Shown here: one piece after another, positions 6,880-37,434 of the stretch
How positions within the stretch are numbered: position 1 is the first letter of the stretch
Layout: each line of letters starts with the position of its first letter
Program-made: the position numbers and the translations under genes
Notes under the pieces: model-generated
Seen by the model: only the letters and a program-made list of their open reading frames with translations
Database searches by the model: none
What the model was told of the DNA's origin: nothing
Assembly (NCBI GenBank): GCA_019914995.1
Contig: CM034142.1
Location: 744,001-808,000 of the forward strand
Reading direction: 5' to 3'
DNA: 64,000 bases
DNA from: Acanthochlamys bracteata
Lineage: Eukaryota > Streptophyta > Magnoliopsida > Pandanales > Velloziaceae

Positions 6880-8115
6880 ATATGTAAAACTTATTGAGGT
6901 GGACTATTCAAATTACTCCAAGTTGTTGGACGTGAATGTAATAACTTAAAGTGACAACTAATTGAGGCCCAAACAGAGTCGATGGACCTTGGGCTAAAAT
7001 TCATTGATTTTTATTTACAAACATAATCTTTTAATATAGGTCAAACTATTTTCAGTAGCTTTCCTTTTTTTTTTGGCTAATTTTAGCCCTCTCTTTTGAA
7101 TTTTTTGGATAATTTTGTTCTTAACAATGGGTAAATATATACGCTCCTTTTGAACTCTAACAAAATTATGCATGATTTTTTAAAATATTTTAAAAAAATT
7201 TTTAAAATATAAATAAATATAGATTATAAAGTAATTATATAGATAATTTTAAGTATTTATAAAATAATATATTTAAGTGCTTTTTTTAGAAAAACTTTTT
7301 TAATAAGTATTTTCAAATATTTCCAAAATTCGCTTGATTTATTGAACATTTATAATTTGATTGGTGAACATATTTAATTTATGAAAAAATTGAATTTAAA
7401 AAACGTTAAAAGAGAGAACGAGTAAATTAAAAGCATGTTATTTGTTCGGAAGTATTCGAAAATAAATTTATTAACAATAAATTTCTAAAAAATGAACCGT
7501 AAAAAAAGGAGTTGTGTGAGTAAATGTGAAAAGTAACTATAGAAAATTATTTGAAAGTGGTCTTTTAATAAAAAATCACTCCGACTAAAGTAAAGTTTTA
7601 AAATTATAAATAATTTTGAAGTTAAGAAACGGTTATGAATAATGATCTCCTGTTTATCTAATTAATAATTTAATAATAAGCTGTATAATTTAGGGACCGT
7701 TTAACAACGCTTATTCAGTAAGCAATTTATTTTTTATTTTAAGTTTATAATAAAATTTTTATAATATTTTATAAATTTTATTTAAAAATTCAAGAACATA
7801 TAAAATATTATACGTAATGAAATCTTTTTATTATTTATTTTATTATTTTTTAAATCAAAATTATAAATTTATTTATCAAAATAAAATAAAAATATTTTTT
7901 AGTTTAGAAAAATTTATTTAATAAATACTTCGAACACTCTTTATCGTAGAAATTGAGTAATCAATCAATTTTTAAAAATGATTTATAAAGATAATATTTG
8001 ACATTATGTTACAAATATTTTTTATTTATATTTTAATTTTTTAGTATTTATAATTTTATTATAATATTTAAATTTTTAAAAATTTTAAATATATATAAAT
8101 TATCAATATATATAT
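6880..8115. other. AT-rich intergenic DNA with a degenerate MITE
   Basis: No gene is seen. A segment at about 7692-7942 begins gggaccgtttaacaacgctta and ends in a rough inverted counterpart (aatacttcgaacactctt). It resembles the GTTTGGGAGTGCTTA family seen intact at 45830-46084. The rest is poly-A/T-rich. Confidence 0.5.
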
Positions 8116-8541
8116 GAAGAGAATAGATGCACTCTCTCTTTAAGAGCATTATTGGAGATTTTCTTTCCGATTTATGGTCGGAGTGACCTTCAAATTCAAT
8201 CTTCACTGTTGGATATGAAGAATTATAAATTTGAAATCTATCCATAAAATTTCAGCTCAATCCGACCATTAATTCACCTCCATCCGATCACTTGATCAAG
8301 ATGACAGAAATGACACAATATATATATATATATTTAAATTTTCTTATTTTCTGTCATCTTAATCAAGTGACCGGATGGATATAAATTTGTATTCCGATTG
8401 AGCTGAAATTTTATTGATAGATTTCTAACTCATAATTCTTCATATTCAACAGTGAAAATTGAATTTGGAAATCACTCCGTCATAAATCGGGGAGGGAGTG
8501 TCCGAAAGTGCCCTTAATAAGAGAGTGATCATATCCCTCCC
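8116..8541. repeat. Long foldback (hairpin) element, copy 1
   Basis: Two arms of about 200 bp are imperfect inverted repeats separated by a short AT-rich loop around 8318-8335. The left arm contains ccgatttatggtcgg, aaaatttcagctcaatc and cacttgatcaagatgacag; the right arm carries their reverse complements. The whole unit lies between (TA)n tracts. It shares sequence and architecture with 22035-22454. There are no ORFs. It looks like a foldback MITE able to form a long hairpin transcript. Confidence 0.8.
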
Positions 8542-10140
8542 TATATGTATATATATATATATATATATTTATTTATTTTTTTTAAAAAAGTTTTAGAATA
8601 AAATCTTTTTTCTATAATTAGCGCAAAAACATTAAACATCGTTATATGGGCAATTTAGTCAATTAAATTATTAGTGAATTTTAATCACGTGCGAGCGCGG
8701 GAACTTTAAAGAAACCTTTTTATTTTCAACCTCTAACTTTTTGAATTTTGATGTGCTTGTAAAGTTTCGCTTCACTGTAAAATAAAAAACGAAGTGGAAA
8801 CTCTATGAAAAACCGTAATCATCTTACCAGAATTGGCTATGATTTCACATTACAGAAAATTTTGTTAAAATTCAGCATAAAATTTTTTTTTTGACATGCA
8901 AACTTTTTAGATGCAATTTTAGGTGACATCGTAATATTTCAACTTGATTAATATATCATTATATAATTAACTACTTGCAGCTTTTTTAATTGAACAAAAT
9001 TATCTATTATAATTTATCATATAATAATTTTTGATAAATTAAACTAATGATAAATTATAAGTTTTTATTAGAAAATTATGTCATTATTTTTATATTTCAA
9101 AGCATTTCAAAAGTAATTTTGAACTTCAAAACTTTTCATGCAAAAACAAATTAATTATGAAAAATTTTCTAAATTAATTATAATTTATTATATTATTAAT
9201 TAATAGGTCATATATAATACTCAGGCTCATAATAAATAATATAATTCTTAGCAAAATATAAATTGGGGATCTTTGAGAATGCATTCCCACTATCAAAGTT
9301 TAAAATATTTCTTTTTTATATTTTAATTTTTTTAAACAAATTAGACCATATAAATAAATTGAATGCCATAAAATCTTATATAAATATATTTTATATAATT
9401 CTTTTGAGATGAAAAATACCAGCTCATTTTTTAAAATTACCAACTTAATTTTTTTTTCAAAAACATTTTTTATTTAAAGTACTTATAAACGTTCGCATTA
9501 TTTTTATGCAACTCCTCATATACAAAATAATAATAAATGAGTAAAGTATAATAAAATTCTAGTAACTCTTATCTATCAACAATTAGAAATTGGATGCCTT
9601 TTTATAACTAATTGGTAACTTTGCTCTCTCTTTTTTTTATATGAAATAAAAACCAACTAGTCTCATAAAAATTTTGATATAAAATTTTAAAATTTTTGTT
9701 CTTTATATTAATCAATTGATTTTAGAGTTTGTTTTAATTACACTAATTTTTTATTTTTTCTTCAAATTTTGAGTTTTGTCATTTTAAGTGATTCAATTGA
9801 CATTCAGAACTTTATTTTTATTTTCACAACGAACTCTATTTGTATCAAATTTAATTTCACTTATTTTAACTAGCATTTTTTATTCTATTTTTATAGAACT
9901 TTACTTTCATAAAATTAAATTTTACAAAATTTAATTACGTGTTTTTAAAAAGACGCACTAGATTACAAACCCATTTTCTAACACCAGAAGAACATCTAAG
10001 TACACCTTATAACATGAAAACCACGCGCCGTTATTTATACCCTTCGATTCAAATCATAAAAAGCCCTCCTAGATCATGTGTTAATTGAAAGAGTTTTCCA
10101 GCTTGCCCTAATCCCTCTAATCACCAGTTAATCTCAATCA
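8542..10140. other. AT-rich intergenic DNA
   Basis: It starts with a (TA)n microsatellite (about 8543-8570). The rest is AT-rich with no recognised gene or well-bounded repeat. The last few hundred bases are the upstream region of the FANTASTIC FOUR-domain gene. Confidence 0.5.
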
Positions 10141-17872: not shown

Positions 17873-18252
17873 TGGAAAAATTGATCCAGCATAGCAATTA
17901 GAGAAATTCGAAAAACTGACAAATTTTCACGAGAGCGGGATCTATAGATTTAGGGTTTTGTGTCTATGTTCTCGAAATTCTAATCTAGGGTTCCTTCACG
18001 ATTCCAATTTTTCTTCTACAACCACTAACTGGGTAAAGAAACATATAATTTAATTTGCAATAGAAATCACTAATAATAACGTTAAGCAAATATTTGCCTC
18101 TACTTATTGTATTAACCACATACAAGAGCCTATAAAATATATAACAATAATATTATGGACTGAAAATGCAAACTATTTTGATGGGCCTGGGCCTTGGTTC
18201 ACAAGTGTTTCTATAACCAGCAGTTAAAAGGTTCGGCAAACTCTTTGGGGAC
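17873..18252. promoter_or_regulatory. Divergent promoter region between the CID and PPR genes
   Basis: About 0.3-0.4 kb separates the CID transcript start (minus) from the PPR ATG (plus). On the minus strand there is a telo-box (AAACCCTA, at 17951-17958) and a second related motif (ACCCTAG, about 17985-17992). Both are typical of the start region of housekeeping and translation-related plant genes. No clear TATA box is seen for either side. Confidence 0.5.
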
Positions 18253-20070
18253 ATGGCTGCGAAAATCTTTGGAGCAATTCTTCAGCAATGTTCAAAATTC
18301 AAAGATTACAGACATGGAATTGCATTACACTCACATATAATCAAGATAGGATTTTGCAATGATCTGATTCTCTGCAACCATGTCCTCAACATGTACACCA
18401 GATGTTATGATTTTGATTCTGCTCATAAACTGTTTGATCATATGCCTAAAAGAAATATTGTTTCATGGTCAGTTATGGTGGCAGGCTATGATCAGGCTGG
18501 CATGCATTCCTCTGCTTTGGGAATATTTGCTCGTATGGATCTTCCAGGCAATGAATATGTGTATGCAAGTGCTATTAGTGCATGTGCGAGTCTGTTAGAG
18601 GTGGATATTGGCAGGCAGGTTCATGCATGTGCAATTAAAAATGGATGCGATTGTGTTTCGTTTGTGTATAACTCTCTTATGTCAATGTACATGAAGTGTC
18701 AGGGGTTTGACGATGCATGTGCTGTTTTTAATGGTGTTTCTGAACCGAATCTGGTGTCTTATAATGCAATGATCTCTGGTTTTGCAGAGAATTCGCAAGC
18801 GGAGAGAAGTCTGGAGCTGTTTAGAATCATGAAAAGAAAAGGGTTGTGTCCTGATCAATTTACTTTTGTTGCAGTGCTCGGGATTTGCTCGATGAAGCAG
18901 GATATTTGTTCAGGTGCTGGACTCTATTGTCAAACGATAAAACTGGGGCTTGCAAAAACAGCTTTTCTTGGTAATGTTATCTTGACCATGTACTCAAATT
19001 GCAATTTGATTATGGAGGTTGAGAAGGCTTTCCAAACCATAGAGGACAAAGATCTAATTTCATGGAACACATTTCTTGCCGCTTGTTGTCATTGCGGAGA
19101 AAATTACAAAGCTCTAATGGTGTATAAGGTTATGCAAGAAAATAACGAGATGAGACCTGATGACTATACAATAGCTACTTTACTGGCTGCTTGTGCGGAG
19201 CTTGGTTTGGTCAAGCATGGTGGGCAGATTCATGCTCATCTCATAAGAACCAAGGAGGATTTTGACATTGGAGTCAGCAATGCTATCATCAACATGTATT
19301 CAAAATGCGGATACATGCCTTATGCAAGCCATGTTTTCCATTGCATGCTTGAGAGAAATCCGGTCTCTTGGAACACTATGATAATGGCGCTTGCAAACCA
19401 TGGGCAAGGTAAAGCCGCAGTTGAATTGTTTGAGCAGATGAAGTCAACTGGAACACTTCCTGATTCAGTTACTCTTATTGGACTCTTAGCAGCTTGTAGT
19501 CATTCCGGGTTAGTGCATGAAGGCACAACATATTACAATCAGATGAAAGATGTTTACAATATAGTTCCGCAAGTGGAGCACTTATCTTGCTTCATAGACT
19601 TGTTAGGTCGAGCAGGGAGACTAACTGAAGCTGAAAAAGAAGCGACTACCTTACATTTTGGTAAAGATCCGGTTGTTCTGGGAAGTTTGCTTTCTTCATC
19701 TCGCCTCCATGGAGATGTTGCTGTTGGTGAGCGAGTTGCAAGAAGGCTTTTGGAGCTAGAACCAACCACAAGTTCACCGTACGTTCTCTTGTCGAGCGTT
19801 TATGCTTCAGATAGCAGATGGGAGCGTGTCTCAGTAATGAGAAATTTGTTGAAAGAGAGTGGTGTGAAGAAGCAACCAGGTCGGAGTTGGATTGAGCTGA
19901 ATGGAATTGTAGAGATGTTTACTGCTGGGAGTTTTGAACACCCAAGAATTGTTGAGATTGAAGAGACATTACGAGTCTTGTATTCAAAGACAGATTTTCT
20001 GCCTAACAATTTTCTTTCTTTCGCCAAGAACTTTACAGAAATTGCTAGTACTGAGGAAATCCTAACATGA
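18253..20070 (+). CDS. PLS-class (E subgroup) pentatricopeptide repeat protein, 605 aa
   Basis: This single-exon frame is filled with P, L and S-type PPR motifs, recognisable by recurrent pieces such as NHVLNMYTRCYDFDSAHKLF, KRNIVSWSVMVAGY, NSLMSMYMKCQGFDDA and NPVSWNTMIMALANHGQGKA. The C-terminus has the E-type extension (LLELEPTTSSPYVLLSSVYA, GVKKQPGRSWIEL) but stops without a DYW deaminase domain. Such proteins bind organellar RNA in a sequence-specific way and usually act in C-to-U editing in mitochondria or plastids, recruiting a deaminase in trans. No obvious targeting peptide can be called by eye. The ATG at 18253 is the first in frame and the family is mostly intronless, as here. The RNA target is unknown. 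It lies between the CID and TSR3 genes. Confidence 0.92.
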   Translation: MAAKIFGAILQQCSKFKDYRHGIALHSHIIKIGFCNDLILCNHVLNMYTRCYDFDSAHKLFDHMPKRNIVSWSVMVAGYDQAGMHSSALGIFARMDLPGNEYVYASAISACASLLEVDIGRQVHACAIKNGCDCVSFVYNSLMSMYMKCQGFDDACAVFNGVSEPNLVSYNAMISGFAENSQAERSLELFRIMKRKGLCPDQFTFVAVLGICSMKQDICSGAGLYCQTIKLGLAKTAFLGNVILTMYSNCNLIMEVEKAFQTIEDKDLISWNTFLAACCHCGENYKALMVYKVMQENNEMRPDDYTIATLLAACAELGLVKHGGQIHAHLIRTKEDFDIGVSNAIINMYSKCGYMPYASHVFHCMLERNPVSWNTMIMALANHGQGKAAVELFEQMKSTGTLPDSVTLIGLLAACSHSGLVHEGTTYYNQMKDVYNIVPQVEHLSCFIDLLGRAGRLTEAEKEATTLHFGKDPVVLGSLLSSSRLHGDVAVGERVARRLLELEPTTSSPYVLLSSVYASDSRWERVSVMRNLLKESGVKKQPGRSWIELNGIVEMFTAGSFEHPRIVEIEETLRVLYSKTDFLPNNFLSFAKNFTEIASTEEILT

Positions 20071-20317: not shown

Positions 20318-22034
20318 TCATTCATCTTCTTCCTCACTTTCTTCCAAAAACAAGTGATTCATGTTTCTTTCCAATGGAGGAAGCCCGTCTTCTGAATCTG
20401 AATCAGTTTCACCGTCCTTTTTAAGCGGAACTTCATTGGATTCTGCAGTTCAAAAAGTTGAATCAAAACAATAAACCTTATACCAGCCACTTATACAAAT
20501 CAACTTATATTACGAATCAAAAGGTGTCAGAAGTACTTCCTTCAGAGTAAGGGAGCTTTGAAATCCTTGAATTGCTGGAGAGCCAGGAGTTTTGAACCAA
20601 TAGAATCTCTGTTCCATTCTTACACTCTGAATAAGCCTTGAGCAGTTCCCTTGTTGCATTAAAAAGGAAAAAGAGAAAATTGTCATAACCACTGGCATTA
20701 AGAATCACATAGTGTCAGACATATTTTAGTAATTTTGATGGATACAAAAACTTAACCCTTCTTCGGTGATACATTTGATCTTATTCTAGGCATCTTAGCG
20801 AACTTAAACAACAAACACCCACAATATGTGAATGTCACATTGCAAGCAAGCAAGTATACCTGTTCAAGGACAAGAAGGAATGGCCCCACTTAAATTTGCT
20901 TAAGAGAAGATTAGCTGTTGACTCCTCTCCACTGCAAAGAAGACAAACTTATGTCAAATACAGAAGTTTGAAGAATTTAGCACATAAACTATGCAGTTAT
21001 TTTTCAAATGACTGTTTAGAGAGTTTTTGGTAATTTGATGATCCACTCTGTGTCATTTCGTAATCCTATCAACAACCCACTCATAAAATAGTATAGGAAA
21101 AAATATATATATATTTCATATCTTAATATTTAGTGAAGTATCTGGAGCTCCAAGAAACTATTTCCATTAACATTAGGAACAGCTGAACAAGAACAGAAAG
21201 CAGCAAGAATGATACACTAAGGAACAGAGATGCTGATAAAGCTAAAAATTTAATCAATATACTTTATCCCTGTACATTCCGAATGAGGACCAAAAATGCT
21301 CTGAAATAATCTGACATGGTCAACATATAAATCATAAAGAATAGCAAATAAAACAAGAGAAAAATTCAATGACATACAAGGCAACTAGGAACACATTATA
21401 TGGATGTATTAATTTATTTTATGAGGATCCAAATTAGCATTTGAAAGAGAAGTGCTTCCTCTACAACTTAAGTTGTTCGGTGATCAATAGAAGAGCTAAA
21501 AGTGTCTAGCCATATAAATCATATCAATTCTGCTGAATTAGCGTATTAAAGGATAAGGTGAGGAGCTTTTAAGATGAAAATCTTGCATAAGAGATTTATT
21601 CCACTAACCATATTATTAAGGCAGCTGAAAGTGCTTCAACGCAGGACAATTCGCATGGTCTTCCATAATTCACCGGGTTTGCTGCAACCAGCCATGGCAC
21701 TACAGTTATACAAAGAAATCTGTTATGATTCCTATCCACCTTAAGAAACATAATTAGAAGTACCTCAATGATATAACACAACCGTCTACTTCAAGGTTGT
21801 GATTATTAAAGTCTCTTGAAATTGTGAGGTTATCTCATCTTGGTATTATCATCATAAAACAAAGAGCCACCACAAAAGCCTAATAACAGCTAAGAGAAAA
21901 CTGCACAATAGCTCCCTAAATCAGTACAAAACATATATAAACTACTCAAAATAACTACATCATAGCACCAAGTAAACATGCATATTTAAGGAAGACTTGG
22001 TTTACTAATATATATAGATATATATATATATATA

Positions 22035-22454
22035 TTGGGATAGAGGTACTCTATTTTTAGGGACACTTCCTGACACTTCCTTTCCGATTCATGGTTGATG
22101 TAACCTCCAAATCAAATCTCCATCGTTGGATATAAAGAACTATAAGTTAAAAACATACTGACAAAATTTCAGCTTAATCGAATTACGAATCGACCTCCAT
22201 CCAGTCACTTGATCAACATGACATAATAATGAAAACTTTAAACAATATATAGTTTTCTTTTTATCATCTTGATCAAGATATCGAATAGAGATCAATTCGT
22301 AATCCGATTGAGCTGAAATTTTATCAGTATGTTTCTACCTTATAGTACTTCATATTCAACGATAGAAGTTTGATTTGAAGATCACACTGACCATAAACCG
22401 AAAAAAAAGTGCGCGGAAGTGCCTCTAAAAATAGAGTGTCCCTATCCCACCCCA
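22035..22454. repeat. Long foldback (hairpin) element, copy 2, in a TSR3 intron
   Basis: It has the same architecture as 8116-8541: arms of about 190 bp, inverted with respect to each other, with a loop near 22240. Shared segments include ccgattgagctgaaatttta and cacttgatcaa. It is flanked on the left by (TA)n at about 22008-22034 and on the right by (TA)n at 22454-22471. The outer ends are inverted copies (gggatagaggtactctatttt against gggatagggacactctatttt). It lies between TSR3 exons 6 and 7. Confidence 0.8.
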
Positions 22455-24304
22455 TATATATATATATATATAGAAGATGACGGAAGCTAATAATAAGTAA
22501 TTGCGACAAAAGTAACTCAAGACATACAAAGGCAGGGTGCACCACAGCGAAGTTTCACGAAAGGAACATCCTTCAGGCGTGCCCATGAACAATCAACCAC
22601 AGCAAGACCTTTTTGTGTGATTAACTGATGATCTTCCTTGGAAACACACTGCATACCAACCGGACTGCTAGATAATTAGGAAAAAGTTGAAAGGAGATGT
22701 GGACAACGGTCAACTGAAAAGCTACTTGCATAGAATTCCTCCTAAATCTAGGAGATGTACATTAATTTAAATAAGAAATACTAGGCTCTAGCAAACGAAA
22801 ACCATGCATAAGCTAAGCACAAGAACTATAAACATCAATAACATGCCTGACAATCAACACAACGTGAGATCACCATTTATCTTTCCCAGACTTTCATATT
22901 ATATAAATCCATGAATTTAATGAATGATTTGTCATAGGAAAAGAAAAACAATTCTGCGCACGTCAGAATCAAATGATATATTAAAGTAGAGTATTGCTAA
23001 AAAGGGAAACTTCTTACCTCAAAACAATGCCTGGATATCCACTTGTCACTCTTAATTCCTGACCAAGGATAACATGATTCACAAATCCTCAAGAAAATTA
23101 CAAAAAGGATGCATGACATTATCTATAACTGAAGGTCTAATCCAAAGACACCATCCAGTGAATCACAGCAAAGACCGTATACTCCATGAGTATCTTTGTC
23201 AATCTTAAAGCAAGATGAAAAACACAGATGAAGGAAATGCAAATCAGCAATTTCAAGAAATAATGTCAAACTCTAGATAGAATGATAGATTAGCTCCATT
23301 TAGCACGATACTTCTTCACTAGGGTCCCCAAGTTACACAAAATGCACTAACCTTTAGTAGCCCAAATCTTGAAAGCTTGCGCCCTGTACATCTTTTGACA
23401 TCACATTGTCAAAAATCCTGAACAAAATGAACATCCATTAGTGAAAATGCAAGATTCTAAAAAATCTTCAAATCTATATACTACTTGAAATGGGTTCCAA
23501 GGAAGCCTAGGATGGTTCCATTTCAAATAGAGTTTTCTCCTTTTTTTGAATTTGTAGAATAAAAGCAATTTTAAATAATAAGTATGCATGCGTATATTGA
23601 ATAAAATATTTCATGCCTATGTATTAAGTAAAAAGCTAATGCATGCCTAAAAAATACAAAAGCAATTTACATCCACATGAAAATTTAATGGAGCATGCAA
23701 AAGTAATATGCAAAAACAGTATCAGCAGTCAATTTCTAGAGTCTAGCGAGAAAATTTAAGAAGTTTGTTGAAAATCCTTAAATTTAGGAATAACGATTCA
23801 CTTATATTACAAAATCTAAAGGGATCCTTACAAGAATAAATATATTATTATTAATCTAATACATACATGCATACATATGATAACTTTAAAGTAGACTTCA
23901 GAATCTAATTTTATGCCACATAGAAAAGCATTATATTTATCAGAATGGCTAAGTTTAAGTTAGTCATCCTTTTTTATTAAATGAAAGATGAAGAGCTTCC
24001 ATCGGATTAAATTAAACTCCATAATTACAATATCCCTATGCTTAATCAATTTAATGTGTTTTAAAGGAACCAACATTCAGGTTAGTATAATGCCAATTAA
24101 TAAGAATATAAAAGGACATAGTACACTCTTTTAACTTTGATTGACCTATAGATCTACCTTAAAATTTAATTACTTTAATTTAAGACAACTAAAAGATCAA
24201 ACAGACCAAAGAATGTAAACAGTGTATCCATTCTTTTACTATTGCCCATTACCTCAGGGCCCTATCAATTACTACCAATATTCATGTTAATAATTATATT
24301 CATT

Positions 24305-27300
24305 ACTAGTATTATGCACTGTGCGTTGCACTAGTGAACGTCTTTCCTAAATGCTATTACTAATTCAATATTTAGTAAGATTTTATAACTAAAGATTAGT
24401 TAGAAAATTGTTAGAAAGGATTAGTTAAATATGTTAATTGCATGAAGTTTATAAATTTAACATACTTGAATATATGAGTTGCTCATTTTTAAACCTTAAA
24501 TTAAACTTAACACTTTATCTAGCGAATTTTCAAAATACATATAGATGGAGTTTTAAATATATCATAAATAGATTTTTTAAAAGATAAATAAGCAGACATG
24601 TATGTCTGTTTGAGATGTAGAGGACCTAATAATATTTGTAATCTGAGTGTTCTATATTATATATGAGCTAAGAAATTTGTACAAGCGGTTATTTGTATTT
24701 ATACAGATTTATATGTCTAAGGTTTTTCTTTTTTCTCATACTTGATCATTAAGTATAGATTACTAATGGTTCCTGACTATTTAGAATAGATTATTATATA
24801 GATTTTTTTTTTCTGTAGTTTGTCTTTTCATGTTTTACTTGGTTATTGACTGTAGCAAAATAGAATATGATTTTCAGAATACAAATCGCTAGGCAATATT
24901 ATTTACTAAAGAAATCAATTACCAAAGAGAGAATTCAATTTAAAACTTTAGTATATAAATTAAATGTAAGTCAAGCAAAAAAAAAAGACAAGAAATATAA
25001 TTAAGTGCGGAAGTGTATCATGCATAATATATTTATGGGTGATTATCCCTTCCAATATAGTTATCTCTATCATCTGTTTATCAGAACTAAATTATCTTAT
25101 ACTCCTATTTAATTTTTCTTTATGTTCTTGTAGCTTTTTCAATTAAGGTCTTTAATTTAAATGTAGGATAATGAGTCAAAGAAATGGAGTTATTGATCTA
25201 AGGATTAAATTTGTCATTTTGACTAGAAAATGGAGTCAAAGAAACTTGCTTTTTACAAAATCACCCTTAAGCACTAATATGAAACTTGCCATCTAAAGGT
25301 TGGAGATTCCTATCAAAGATGAATCACCTTAAATTCTAAATCTAACAAAGGTTGCTACGAAACCTATCAACTTGTGTATGATATACAAAATCTAAAAGAA
25401 AGAGGAGACGATCAATATTAAATGTAGGAGAAAACTAACCAAAATGACACAAACATTAGGACATTGTAGAGATTCATAAAACAAAAATTGAGGAGTGAAA
25501 CGTCTATGTATAGATATGTAGATCACCACTTCATCTTAGCACAATCTTTGATACTAAATCCTTAAGGAAAAACCACAATATTTCAAAGTTGAAATAAATA
25601 ATGAAGAAGGATATGCAGTCTGAATATTGCAAATGAAATATGACACAAATAGCACTAAGATCTTTTTGCATCAAAGGATAGAAATAAGATAGAATTATCT
25701 GGACCTGCAATAGCCTATTTATCACAATCTGTTTCTTTCAACTCTCTAATCTCTCCATTCTAAGGAGCACAGCTTTAAGAATCCTGTCTTTACCTAACAA
25801 ATCATTGAACTAAGAATATGTGGAGACTATAGAATATACTTTAAAAATTACAATTAAGTTAAAATCCTATTATTTATTATGTAAATGTTATAAAAAAGTT
25901 AATGAATTTAGTACATTTAAATTAGAAATTAATACGTAAACTTAGACTGGCTGAACCAGATAGAGGCTTTTAGATGGAAATATTGTGCTTGAATTAATGC
26001 TTCTAATCACTCTTCTCCTCTCTTCTTCATGTTCCACTCTTCTTATTTTAATTCCATTATCTATTCTATTTACTAGATGAATACATGAATAGGAAGTAAA
26101 ACCAGAGAATATGACAGGACGTACATCAGCTTCATTCGTACTAAAAGTTAAACTGAATTAAAAGAACTTAATACATTTAAAATTTTGCTTACTTGGAATA
26201 ATAGTAGGCTTCCAACATCTGCTCTTAATATACTATTAGAATAGATTCCCTTACATTCTCAAACTTTTCGTCTTTAAATATTAATAGCATTCACCTATAT
26301 ATAACACTTTCGATCATGGAGACATTCTTTCAGGAAACAACACAGATAAGTATAAAATATTTCAACAAAGATGAGTGTTGTGGTGATGAGAAGGCTTATA
26401 TATATATAGGTGAAAGTTTCAGATAAATCGCAACATATTTTGACCACGAGCTTGCATCAATCGTTGTCACGCAAGTAAGAAGAAATGTACAGAGGGTGGT
26501 TGGAATGCTTCTTTTGGTCTCAAATCTTAAAGAATCAAGTCCATAACCTTTCCTTACAGGCATATGACAAGTTTTCATTTTTATTGGCATCATAGGAAGG
26601 TTTGCATATGATTTAGGCACTGCCATGCAGCAACAAGAGAAGTTGCACACCGACTATCTTTTATTTTGTCTTTTATTCTTTTCCGTTGCTTTTGAGTAAG
26701 AAATTATGCTTCAACAACTATGCTTCTGGAATTTTTACACCATATTCATAGAATGCACATGGTTGCCATTTGGATTTGTTTTTGTTGGAATTTAGTTGAA
26801 ATAATCATCTTACCACCTTCTATCTTAAATTTGCATATTTCATACAAAATATCAAAATCACATTTTTCTAGCTATTATAAGGGTATGAGGAACTTAAGAA
26901 AGTGATACCCATAAATAAAAAGACTTTATAATACTATTGAAAATTGAATATAAGAAATTCAGTGGAAAAGCCGGTTTAGAAAGAAATTATCTATACAACC
27001 AATTTCTGGAATATAAGTAATTACATAATATGCCGAAAATTCGATAAAAAATAGATCATATAACTTAATTAGAAAGACATACTTGATATAGAAGATAGCA
27101 TTATTTTCATTTATACAACATAAAACTCAGTACATACTATAAGCCAAATAAAAAACTTAAGTGACATAAATCTACAATATACCAAAACTACATGCAAATA
27201 TTTGGAGTTACAAGAAGGTATAATAAATGTAAAAAATAAAAATAAAAGAAAATTAGATAAATATCTAATTAACTAAGGCAAAACAAAAATTTTAGCATAA

Positions 27301-27602
27301 CTCATAAAAGTACTTCAACTTAACCCTGAACTCTAAGCTAAATAAAAACTTAAGTGACATAATTTACAATATACCAAAACTACAAGCAAATAAGTTGGAG
27401 TTAAAAAATGAAAAGAGAAGGATAAAGAAAATGAGATAAATACCAAATTAACTAAAAGCTAAACAAAAATTTTAGTCATAACTCATAAAGAGTACTTCAA
27501 CTTAACTTGAACTCGAGTGTAAATTCATTTTATGTCTTTAAAGCATGTATTTACATGAATATTTAGATATCCACCAGTGCAACATATGGGCAACCTACTA
27601 GT
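24305..27602. mobile_element. Repeat-bounded 3.3-kb insertion in TSR3 intron 3, class unknown
   Basis: The left boundary (ACTAGTATTATGCAC then GTTGCACTAGTG) and the right boundary read on the minus strand (ACTAGTAGGTTGCCC then GTTGCACTGGTGG) are clearly related inverted termini about 33 bases long. The interior is AT-rich, without a recognisable transposase. No convincing target duplication is seen. The right boundary ends 19 bases from TSR3 exon 3. It could be a TIR element or a Helitron-like derivative, since GTGCGTTGCAC-type motifs occur at several plant element ends. Classification is left open. Confidence 0.45.
27141..27520. repeat. Tandem duplication, two copies of about 190 bp
   Basis: The segment starting aagccaaataaaaaacttaa at 27141 is repeated from 27335 (aagctaaataaaaacttaa). 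Both copies run through gtgacata, acaatataccaaaactac, ggagtta, aaacaaaaattttag and cataactcataaa to acttcaacttaac. The copies differ by scattered substitutions and small indels. It lies inside the 3.3-kb insertion in TSR3 intron 3. Confidence 0.8.
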
Positions 27603-27809
27603 TTAAGAGATAGAAGCATACCCACATTGCAAGCCGAATTTTTGAAGCCCGAGTGTCCTGACAACTCTCATCTGCAAAAAAATTGAGAGTTCATCTTTTT
27701 AGAGAACAAAGTACAAATTCGTAACAAGTGTGACTATGATACGAGCAAGGAAGATGACGATGAAGGACAAAGAAATAAGGAAGAAACCACTAGATATGGT
27801 TTACAGCTC

Positions 27810-29080: not shown

Positions 29081-29948
29081 CATCATTTGGTTTCTCTTGA
29101 TCATCAGCCCTGTACAACATAAGTTAATAGATACATTTAGTAATAAACAGTTAAATTGAATGGGTAAAGCAAAATCATTACTCCAAAAAAAGGGTTGAAA
29201 AGCCTTCATAAACACTAGCTCAGCAAAGTGTCATCTTCCTCAGATGAATGTGTATAAAAGCTTGTTTTTTACAGAATCACGGTGAAGAAACAAGTAACAG
29301 AAAGAGTAAGAAGCTAATATCGATTTGGGTATTCTCCTAATCAAAAGCACGAATAAACCAAAACAAAAAAAACACTCTTTATAAAAAAATTTCTCATTTC
29401 TGACTGGTTGGAACAGTTTCATCCAAATCGAAAACACGAAAAAAAAAAAAAAACAAAAACAAAATTTTCTCTTTCTTCTAAAGGCAAGCGTAGGTTCCAA
29501 ACTAAAACCATGAATAAAGCCCTTTTATCTAAAAATCCAAGATAAAAAACAGAGTATTTGCTTACCACTGCAGTTGTCGATTATTACTGGAATTCCCACG
29601 GCTTGAAGAACGACCACGAGACCATCTCGACTTGTTGTATCCCATCTACTCAAAACAACAACAAAATTTACACAGAACAAAATAAATTTACTGATTAAGT
29701 TTCTCAATTTATTCTCAAGAAATTTTTGTTTTTGCTTTCTAATCTCTCAACAAGATCAGAGGGTTTAAGGGCTTGATTTTTTTCCTAATTTTGCAGTGAT
29801 AGAACTTAATTTTATTATCTATTGCCAATATATTTTCTAATTACGGCCCATTTTAGTACATCCCGTTTGAGCCCATTAACATTTCATCTTCCTCGTTCAT
29901 TAAACAAGCCTTTAATCGAAATTTTTTTTTTTCCGAACAACACGAATT

Positions 29949-36300: not shown

Positions 36301-37434
36301 ATTCAGATACACTTTTGGAACAGCAGATGTCCCAGAGTTCTTCTCCAGCTCCAACTTCCTGCTAGGATAAATATCAATATTGATCTCGACAAATTTGAGT
36401 TGTTTCTGTTGCATAAACAATCTGACTTCCTTGCACTCCTGGCATCCTATCCTAGTGTATACTATGACTCTTCCCTTCATTCTTGGCTCATCCACCTTAT
36501 CATCCATTTGTTGTTTCTTGGGATTATTTTCAACATCTATCTTGGGTCCCATCTTGATAAGGTTTAACCCATTCCAGCCAAAACGCTCTCCTGCCCTAGT
36601 CAGAGCATCTTTAAGCTTAGAATCTGTTGCGGTGACTGCCTGCTCTTTTGATTCCTTCATAGAATCAACATTCTTCTCATCTTCTTTGGTTGTTTCATTC
36701 TTCTGAACTTCAACAAGAGAGTTCTCATCATCCTTTTCGCCTGAAAGGCGGCGCATAACTGTTGAGACAGCAACTGTTCCCCTTTCCTTGACAAAGTTTG
36801 TAAGGGCAGCTTTTAGGGGCCAAGCAGATGCCTGCTCACTAGAATCTTGATCAAGAGAATGATCCGATGAATTCCTTCTCATTTCAAGCTCAGGAGCTTC
36901 AATTCCATCAAAGACAGGATCACTTTTTTCCTCTTCAGCAAGGGCATTATCTGCATCCAGATTTTCTTCCTTCTCTGTTACCAAGTTGCTAAGTCCCTTG
37001 ATCTCCATATTTAAGTTTTCTTGATCATTATCACCACTATTAGTTACTTGAATAGATTTCAATTCATTTGATAATCTTTTCTCATCTCCATCAACTGTGT
37101 GTTTCAATGAGTTCTCTGAATCACCACTTTGTCCCTCGATCAGCTTTTTTGGTAGTGCTTCTTCATTCTGCAGTATAACAGTACCATCTCCTGTTACTTC
37201 AGAAGATTTCAGCTGATTGGGTAATCCTTCCTCGTCATCCTCATTAACAGTGTGATTAGGTAATCCTTTCCCATCTTCCCCCTCAAGAGTGTGCTTCAGT
37301 GAGTCCTTGGAAATACCTACTATTTCCTGAGTTACATTTTCCAGCTCATTTCCAATGTTTTTCTCACCAAGACGATTCTTAGGTGTATCCTCTGAGGAAC
37401 TAGATGAAGAGCTTCTATCATCATTGCTGCTCAT
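33330..37434 (-). CDS. Glutaredoxin-DEP-DUF547 multidomain protein, 789 aa (At4g08550-like)
   Basis: Exons 35998-37434, 35827-35882, 35480-35713, 34133-34424, 33722-33918 and 33330-33483 join with correct phases. Domains in order: a long acidic, Ser-rich N-terminus (about 1-315); a glutaredoxin fold (about 320-405: VIVYTRIGCQECKEVRLF, SAVPKVYLND, GGLSEL) with a C-Q-E-C site; a DEP domain (about 430-510: RMRKFNNCFLGSEAVNLL across to AVEFGRKLANNHFFRHVS); and DUF547 (LSREEKLAFFINLYNMISIH, FALVCGARSSPALRCYSP). The C-terminus is YQPYDWSMNC. Plant proteins with this order are annotated as electron carrier/disulfide oxidoreductases, but their function is not established. Redox activity is inferred from the CxxC only. 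Two related segments in the N-terminus (SLKHT...GLPN / SLKHT...RLSN) suggest an internal duplication. The start lies 12 bases past a leader-intron acceptor. Confidence 0.9.

Follow-up and report, generated by a model that had tools for sequence, protein, structure and literature searches.

What does an in-frame stop codon in a plant TSR3 gene say about the fate of the enzyme and of its rRNA mark? TSR3, the 18S rRNA aminocarboxypropyl transferase of the TDD/DTW superfamily, moves an aminocarboxypropyl group onto small-subunit rRNA (PMC7026641), and has been described as occurring in all eukaryotes (PMC4275035). The stop lies in the window, the whole 64,000-nucleotide stretch of DNA under analysis (C17:744001-808000), which forms part of a 195.5-Mb assembly in 557 contigs; that the DNA is from a plant is read from the introns and from the PPR-E protein encoded next to TSR3. 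Here, TSR3 occupies positions 29645-20318 of the minus strand, with ten exons joining in phase and a terminal stop ending at 20318 (see table). Exon 4 reads GAT TTT TGA CAA TGT GAT on this strand, so that the in-frame TGA noted in the first-pass annotation is indeed there, as codon 56, and truncates the product at 55 residues as it had stated; no other in-frame stop occurs before the terminal one. The assignment to TSR3 is borne out by the spliced product: translated with X for the stop, it exceeds the curated cut-offs of both PF04034 (171.6 bits) and PF04068 (50.6 bits). The 55-residue stub, in contrast to a complete TSR3, breaks off at the third codon of exon 4, ahead of most of the domain, and matched no Pfam family at E 0.001. 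An internal restart was considered and rejected, as the frame next offers an ATG at codon 93 and then at codon 254, both 3' of exon 4.

Features of the window discussed in the text (positions counted from its first nucleotide)
Feature	Position	Strand	Remarks
TSR3 exon 1, window copy	29566..29645	-	ATG at 29645
TSR3 exon 2, window copy	29081..29109	-	29 nt vs 38 nt in C9 copy
TSR3 exon 3, window copy	27622..27671	-	3' end ...AMW
~4.1 kb insert, intron 3	23473..27601	.	termini TC...CTAG between A and T, Helitron-like
TSR3 exon 4, window copy	23352..23417	-	66 nt, phase 0/0, DF*QCDVKRCTGRKLSRFGLLK
Premature TGA, codon 56	23409..23411	-	GGA in C9 copy
TSR3 exon 5, window copy	23018..23058	-	
TSR3 exon 6, window copy	22528..22664	-	DTW-type motif DCSW; Cys133 for Arg near 3' end
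~0.45 kb element, terminal inverted repeats, intron 6	22018..22464	.	bounds approximate; absent from C9 gene
TSR3 exon 7, window copy	21609..21699	-	
TSR3 exon 8, window copy	20860..20931	-	
TSR3 exon 9, window copy	20537..20649	-	AAG acceptor, GAA|GTACTT donor
TSR3 exon 10, window copy	20318..20442	-	includes terminal stop
PPR-E open frame	18217..20070	+	617 codons stop to stop; relic on C9

Whether the species would be left without the enzyme depends on other copies, and the genome search suggested in the first-pass annotation found one. A PF04034 search of the assembly gave four matches at two loci only, the window on C17 and a second locus on C9, and a full-protein search (E up to 1) gave 15 matches at the same two loci; both returned the best-scoring candidates only, and among these matches there was neither a third TSR3 locus nor a second haplotype of the window locus. 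The second gene, C9:7772540-7777299, has the same ten exons and is open over 277 codons, through the catalytic domain in which the window frame is interrupted. Its counterpart of the TGA codon is GGA, and the window copy thus differs from it by the single G-to-T change that had been proposed. Its protein scores 174.3 bits with PF04034 and 51.7 bits with PF04068, again above the curated cut-offs. For comparison, it was aligned with 38 archaeal TSR3 sequences, comprising 36 loci obtained with one crenarchaeal query, a set weighted towards Bathyarchaeota and Methanobacteriales, as well as the solved chains 5ap8 and 5apg, with which it aligns over residues 55-200. At D62, T67, K70, D116, W119, R136 and P139 the C9 protein has the residue found in 37 or all 38 of these sequences. 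Since it keeps these conserved residues, the 18S aminocarboxypropyl mark should persist, with the C9 copy as the likely supplier of the enzyme. Loss of the mark had been foreseen unless another copy exists; the proviso is what holds, and with an intact second TSR3 in a collinear segment loss is not predicted and can be discarded as the expectation. That the species has lost TSR3 function altogether, to which only the TGA itself points, is next to inconceivable as judged from the intact C9 gene and its conserved residues.

How did the two copies arise? Positions 39-55494 of the window match C9 7801181-7718314 collinearly in inverted order, with dispersed repeats intermixed, while no collinear C9 match was seen for the final 8.5 kb of the window. 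The seven aligned introns of TSR3 (1 and 4-9) are 75-86% identical between the copies over aligned bases, and Ks is 0.40 for the whole gene and 0.30 for exons 4-8. A collinear coding-like stretch from window position 37386 (546 alignment columns) has a Ks of 0.33, a value from a table of six-frame, overlapping and unfiltered rows in which short rows scatter widely. Taken together, we infer that the two loci arose by segmental or whole-genome duplication. A shared promoter was ruled out, as collinear similarity extends to only about 27 bp before the ATG; beyond that point all matches are short, with 155 and 88 columns for the two longest.

The neighbouring gene is instructive in this respect. 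The open PPR-E frame of the window has its C9 partner at about 7777.6-7778.6 kb, a frameshifted and internally deleted relic in which counterparts of residues 6-211, 208-227 and 528-600 are still recognisable, each in a frame of its own; residues 241-514 gave a 24% match at this spot that seems to reflect one repeat aligning with another. With TSR3 broken in the window and PPR-E broken on C9, the two segments have therefore lost opposite genes. This is the picture of fractionation after a segmental or whole-genome duplication, with a collinear segment, one copy broken and a neighbour lost on the opposite side, and measured against fractionation nothing here is unusual; the recency of the TSR3 loss alone is notable. 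In our literature searches, no paper had a plant TSR3 pseudogene in its title and none was found on fractionation.

How recent the loss is can be estimated from exons 4-8, to which we confined the analysis, leaving out the faster-evolving ends of the gene (Ka/Ks 0.43 for exons 1-3, and 0.20 for exons 9-10 with a Ks of 0.68). These exons have a Ks of 0.299 and a Ka of 0.010, yielding a Ka/Ks of 0.033, with three replacements in addition to the stop. Had the window branch been neutral throughout, 45.6 replacements would be expected at a Ks of 0.299 and 61.2 at a Ks of 0.402; those seen number from two (the stop and Cys133) to four, if all differences are put on this branch. The neutral share of the history of the window copy then comes to 4-9% (Ks 0.299) or 3-7% (Ks 0.402), with 95% upper bounds of 14-20% and 10-15%, respectively, assuming equal branch rates and simple Nei-Gojobori/Jukes-Cantor counts. 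By this simple estimate, constraint on the window copy would have lapsed only in the final ~3-9% of the time since the copies separated, and the event looks as recent as had been surmised.

The same figures could be read as those of a working second copy with a wrong base in the assembly or consensus, as there is only one in-frame stop and a Ka/Ks of 0.033 over exons 4-8; the first-pass annotation had left the choice between a very recent event and such an error, citing a lack of other lesions. This lack does not hold, given Cys133, the odd splice sites of exon 9 and the 4.1-kb insert in intron 3. The three replacements that separate the copies in exons 4-8, besides the stop, are Tyr83 (Phe in C9), Met93 (Leu) and Cys133 (Arg). 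The Phe and Leu columns vary among the 38 archaeal sequences, whereas the column of Cys133, which lies three positions ahead of the Pro in PRLLP, is Arg in 38/38 and in the C9 copy. Cys133 is thus a departure of the window copy from all archaeal TSR3 compared, and, the stop aside, the sole replacement in exons 4-8 at a position conserved in this set. Basic residues are described as mattering for RNA binding by Tsr3, and the one matching this Arg is reportedly important for it in yeast and Sulfolobus. The codon of the stop itself does not encode an invariant Gly, as had been claimed: the column holds N 15, G 9, R 4, D 4, K 3, E 1, H 1 and P 1, and with Gly in 9/38 sequences the notion was dropped. 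As a change in its own right at a conserved position, Cys133 makes a base error less likely; both it and the exon 9 splice sites would need explanations of their own, and we consider the error distinctly unlikely. Of the two options offered, recency is therefore the one retained.

As to these splice sites, the acceptor of exon 9 is AAG in the window and CAG on C9, and is the only one among the 18 acceptors of both copies without a pyrimidine at -3. Its donor is GAA|GTACTT in the window vs AAG|GTGAGT on C9, and is alone among the 18 donors in lacking a G at both -1 and +5; a G at +5 is also absent from donor 8 of the window copy, where C9 has it, and from donor 1 of C9. The oddity is judged by simple criteria from these two copies, either of which may hold the derived state. 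AAG acceptors and weak donors can work. The description of ten exons in phase and an otherwise open frame is thus accurate for the joined frame, with the qualification that the phase of exon 9 requires both odd sites. Degenerative changes in the window copy number more than one, namely the TGA and Cys133, to which the exon 9 splice differences may add.

Could the window copy still make a full or near-full protein? The rest of the frame is open and exon 4 is symmetrical, so that skipping it would keep the frame on account of its 66 nt and phase 0/0; the alternative route is UGA read-through. The context of the window stop, UGA-CAA, differs from the UGA-CUA read-through motif. Skipping would remove 22 residues, including columns of Asp (D 37, E 1), Thr (T 37, S 1) and Lys (K 38) in the archaeal set (n=38), and would leave Cys133 in place. 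By the 5ap8/5apg alignment and count, the Thr corresponds to T19, which is stated to bind SAM (PMC7026641). No duplicate or mutually exclusive exon 4 was found in the window, where the best match was exon 4 itself (E 3e-10) and the next had an E of 1.5. In sum, we regard a full or near-full product by either route as very improbable. That the copy still acts through transcripts skipping exon 4, yielding an in-frame protein without the SAM-binding segment, seems extremely doubtful; if true, such a protein could interfere with or regulate the intact TSR3. As a side remark, T19, W73 and A76 are given in PMC7026641 as numbered after Vulcanisaeta distributa, and by count in the alignments they fit the other chain, 5apg.

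The introns of the window copy carry inserts as well. Intron 3, which precedes the exon with the TGA, measures 4204 bp vs 73 bp on C9 because of the 4.1-kb insert, whose inner bounds were counted by hand and whose longest open stretch is 85 codons. The insert begins with TC and ends with CTAG, between A and T, and is classed as Helitron-like by its ends only. Neither its body nor its 3' end, the latter allowing three mismatches, gave a second copy among the matches listed for the assembly, which does not prove it rare. Another short element lies at window 8017-8553, and stretches related to it and to that of intron 6 are at C9 7703012-7703381, 7708099-7708560 and 7865012-7865457.

The reading that best accommodates these observations, and that we hold to be very probable, is that the window TSR3 is one of two copies from a segmental or whole-genome duplication and was recently pseudogenised. 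In this scenario, duplication left two copies in collinear segments, of which that in the window would have remained under constraint for most of its history and would then have acquired the TGA and Cys133. Its transcripts, if any, would encode a stub ending before most of the catalytic domain, and would probably be removed by nonsense-mediated decay, as the stop lies in exon 4 of 10. The TGA may be present in one allele only. What the locus records is thus probably the ordinary loss of one duplicate, and loss of the enzyme in the species is improbable. This lays to rest a false alarm over the absence of an rRNA modification, and leaves a duplicated ribosome-biogenesis gene that selection seemingly maintained through most of its history, until one of the copies failed.
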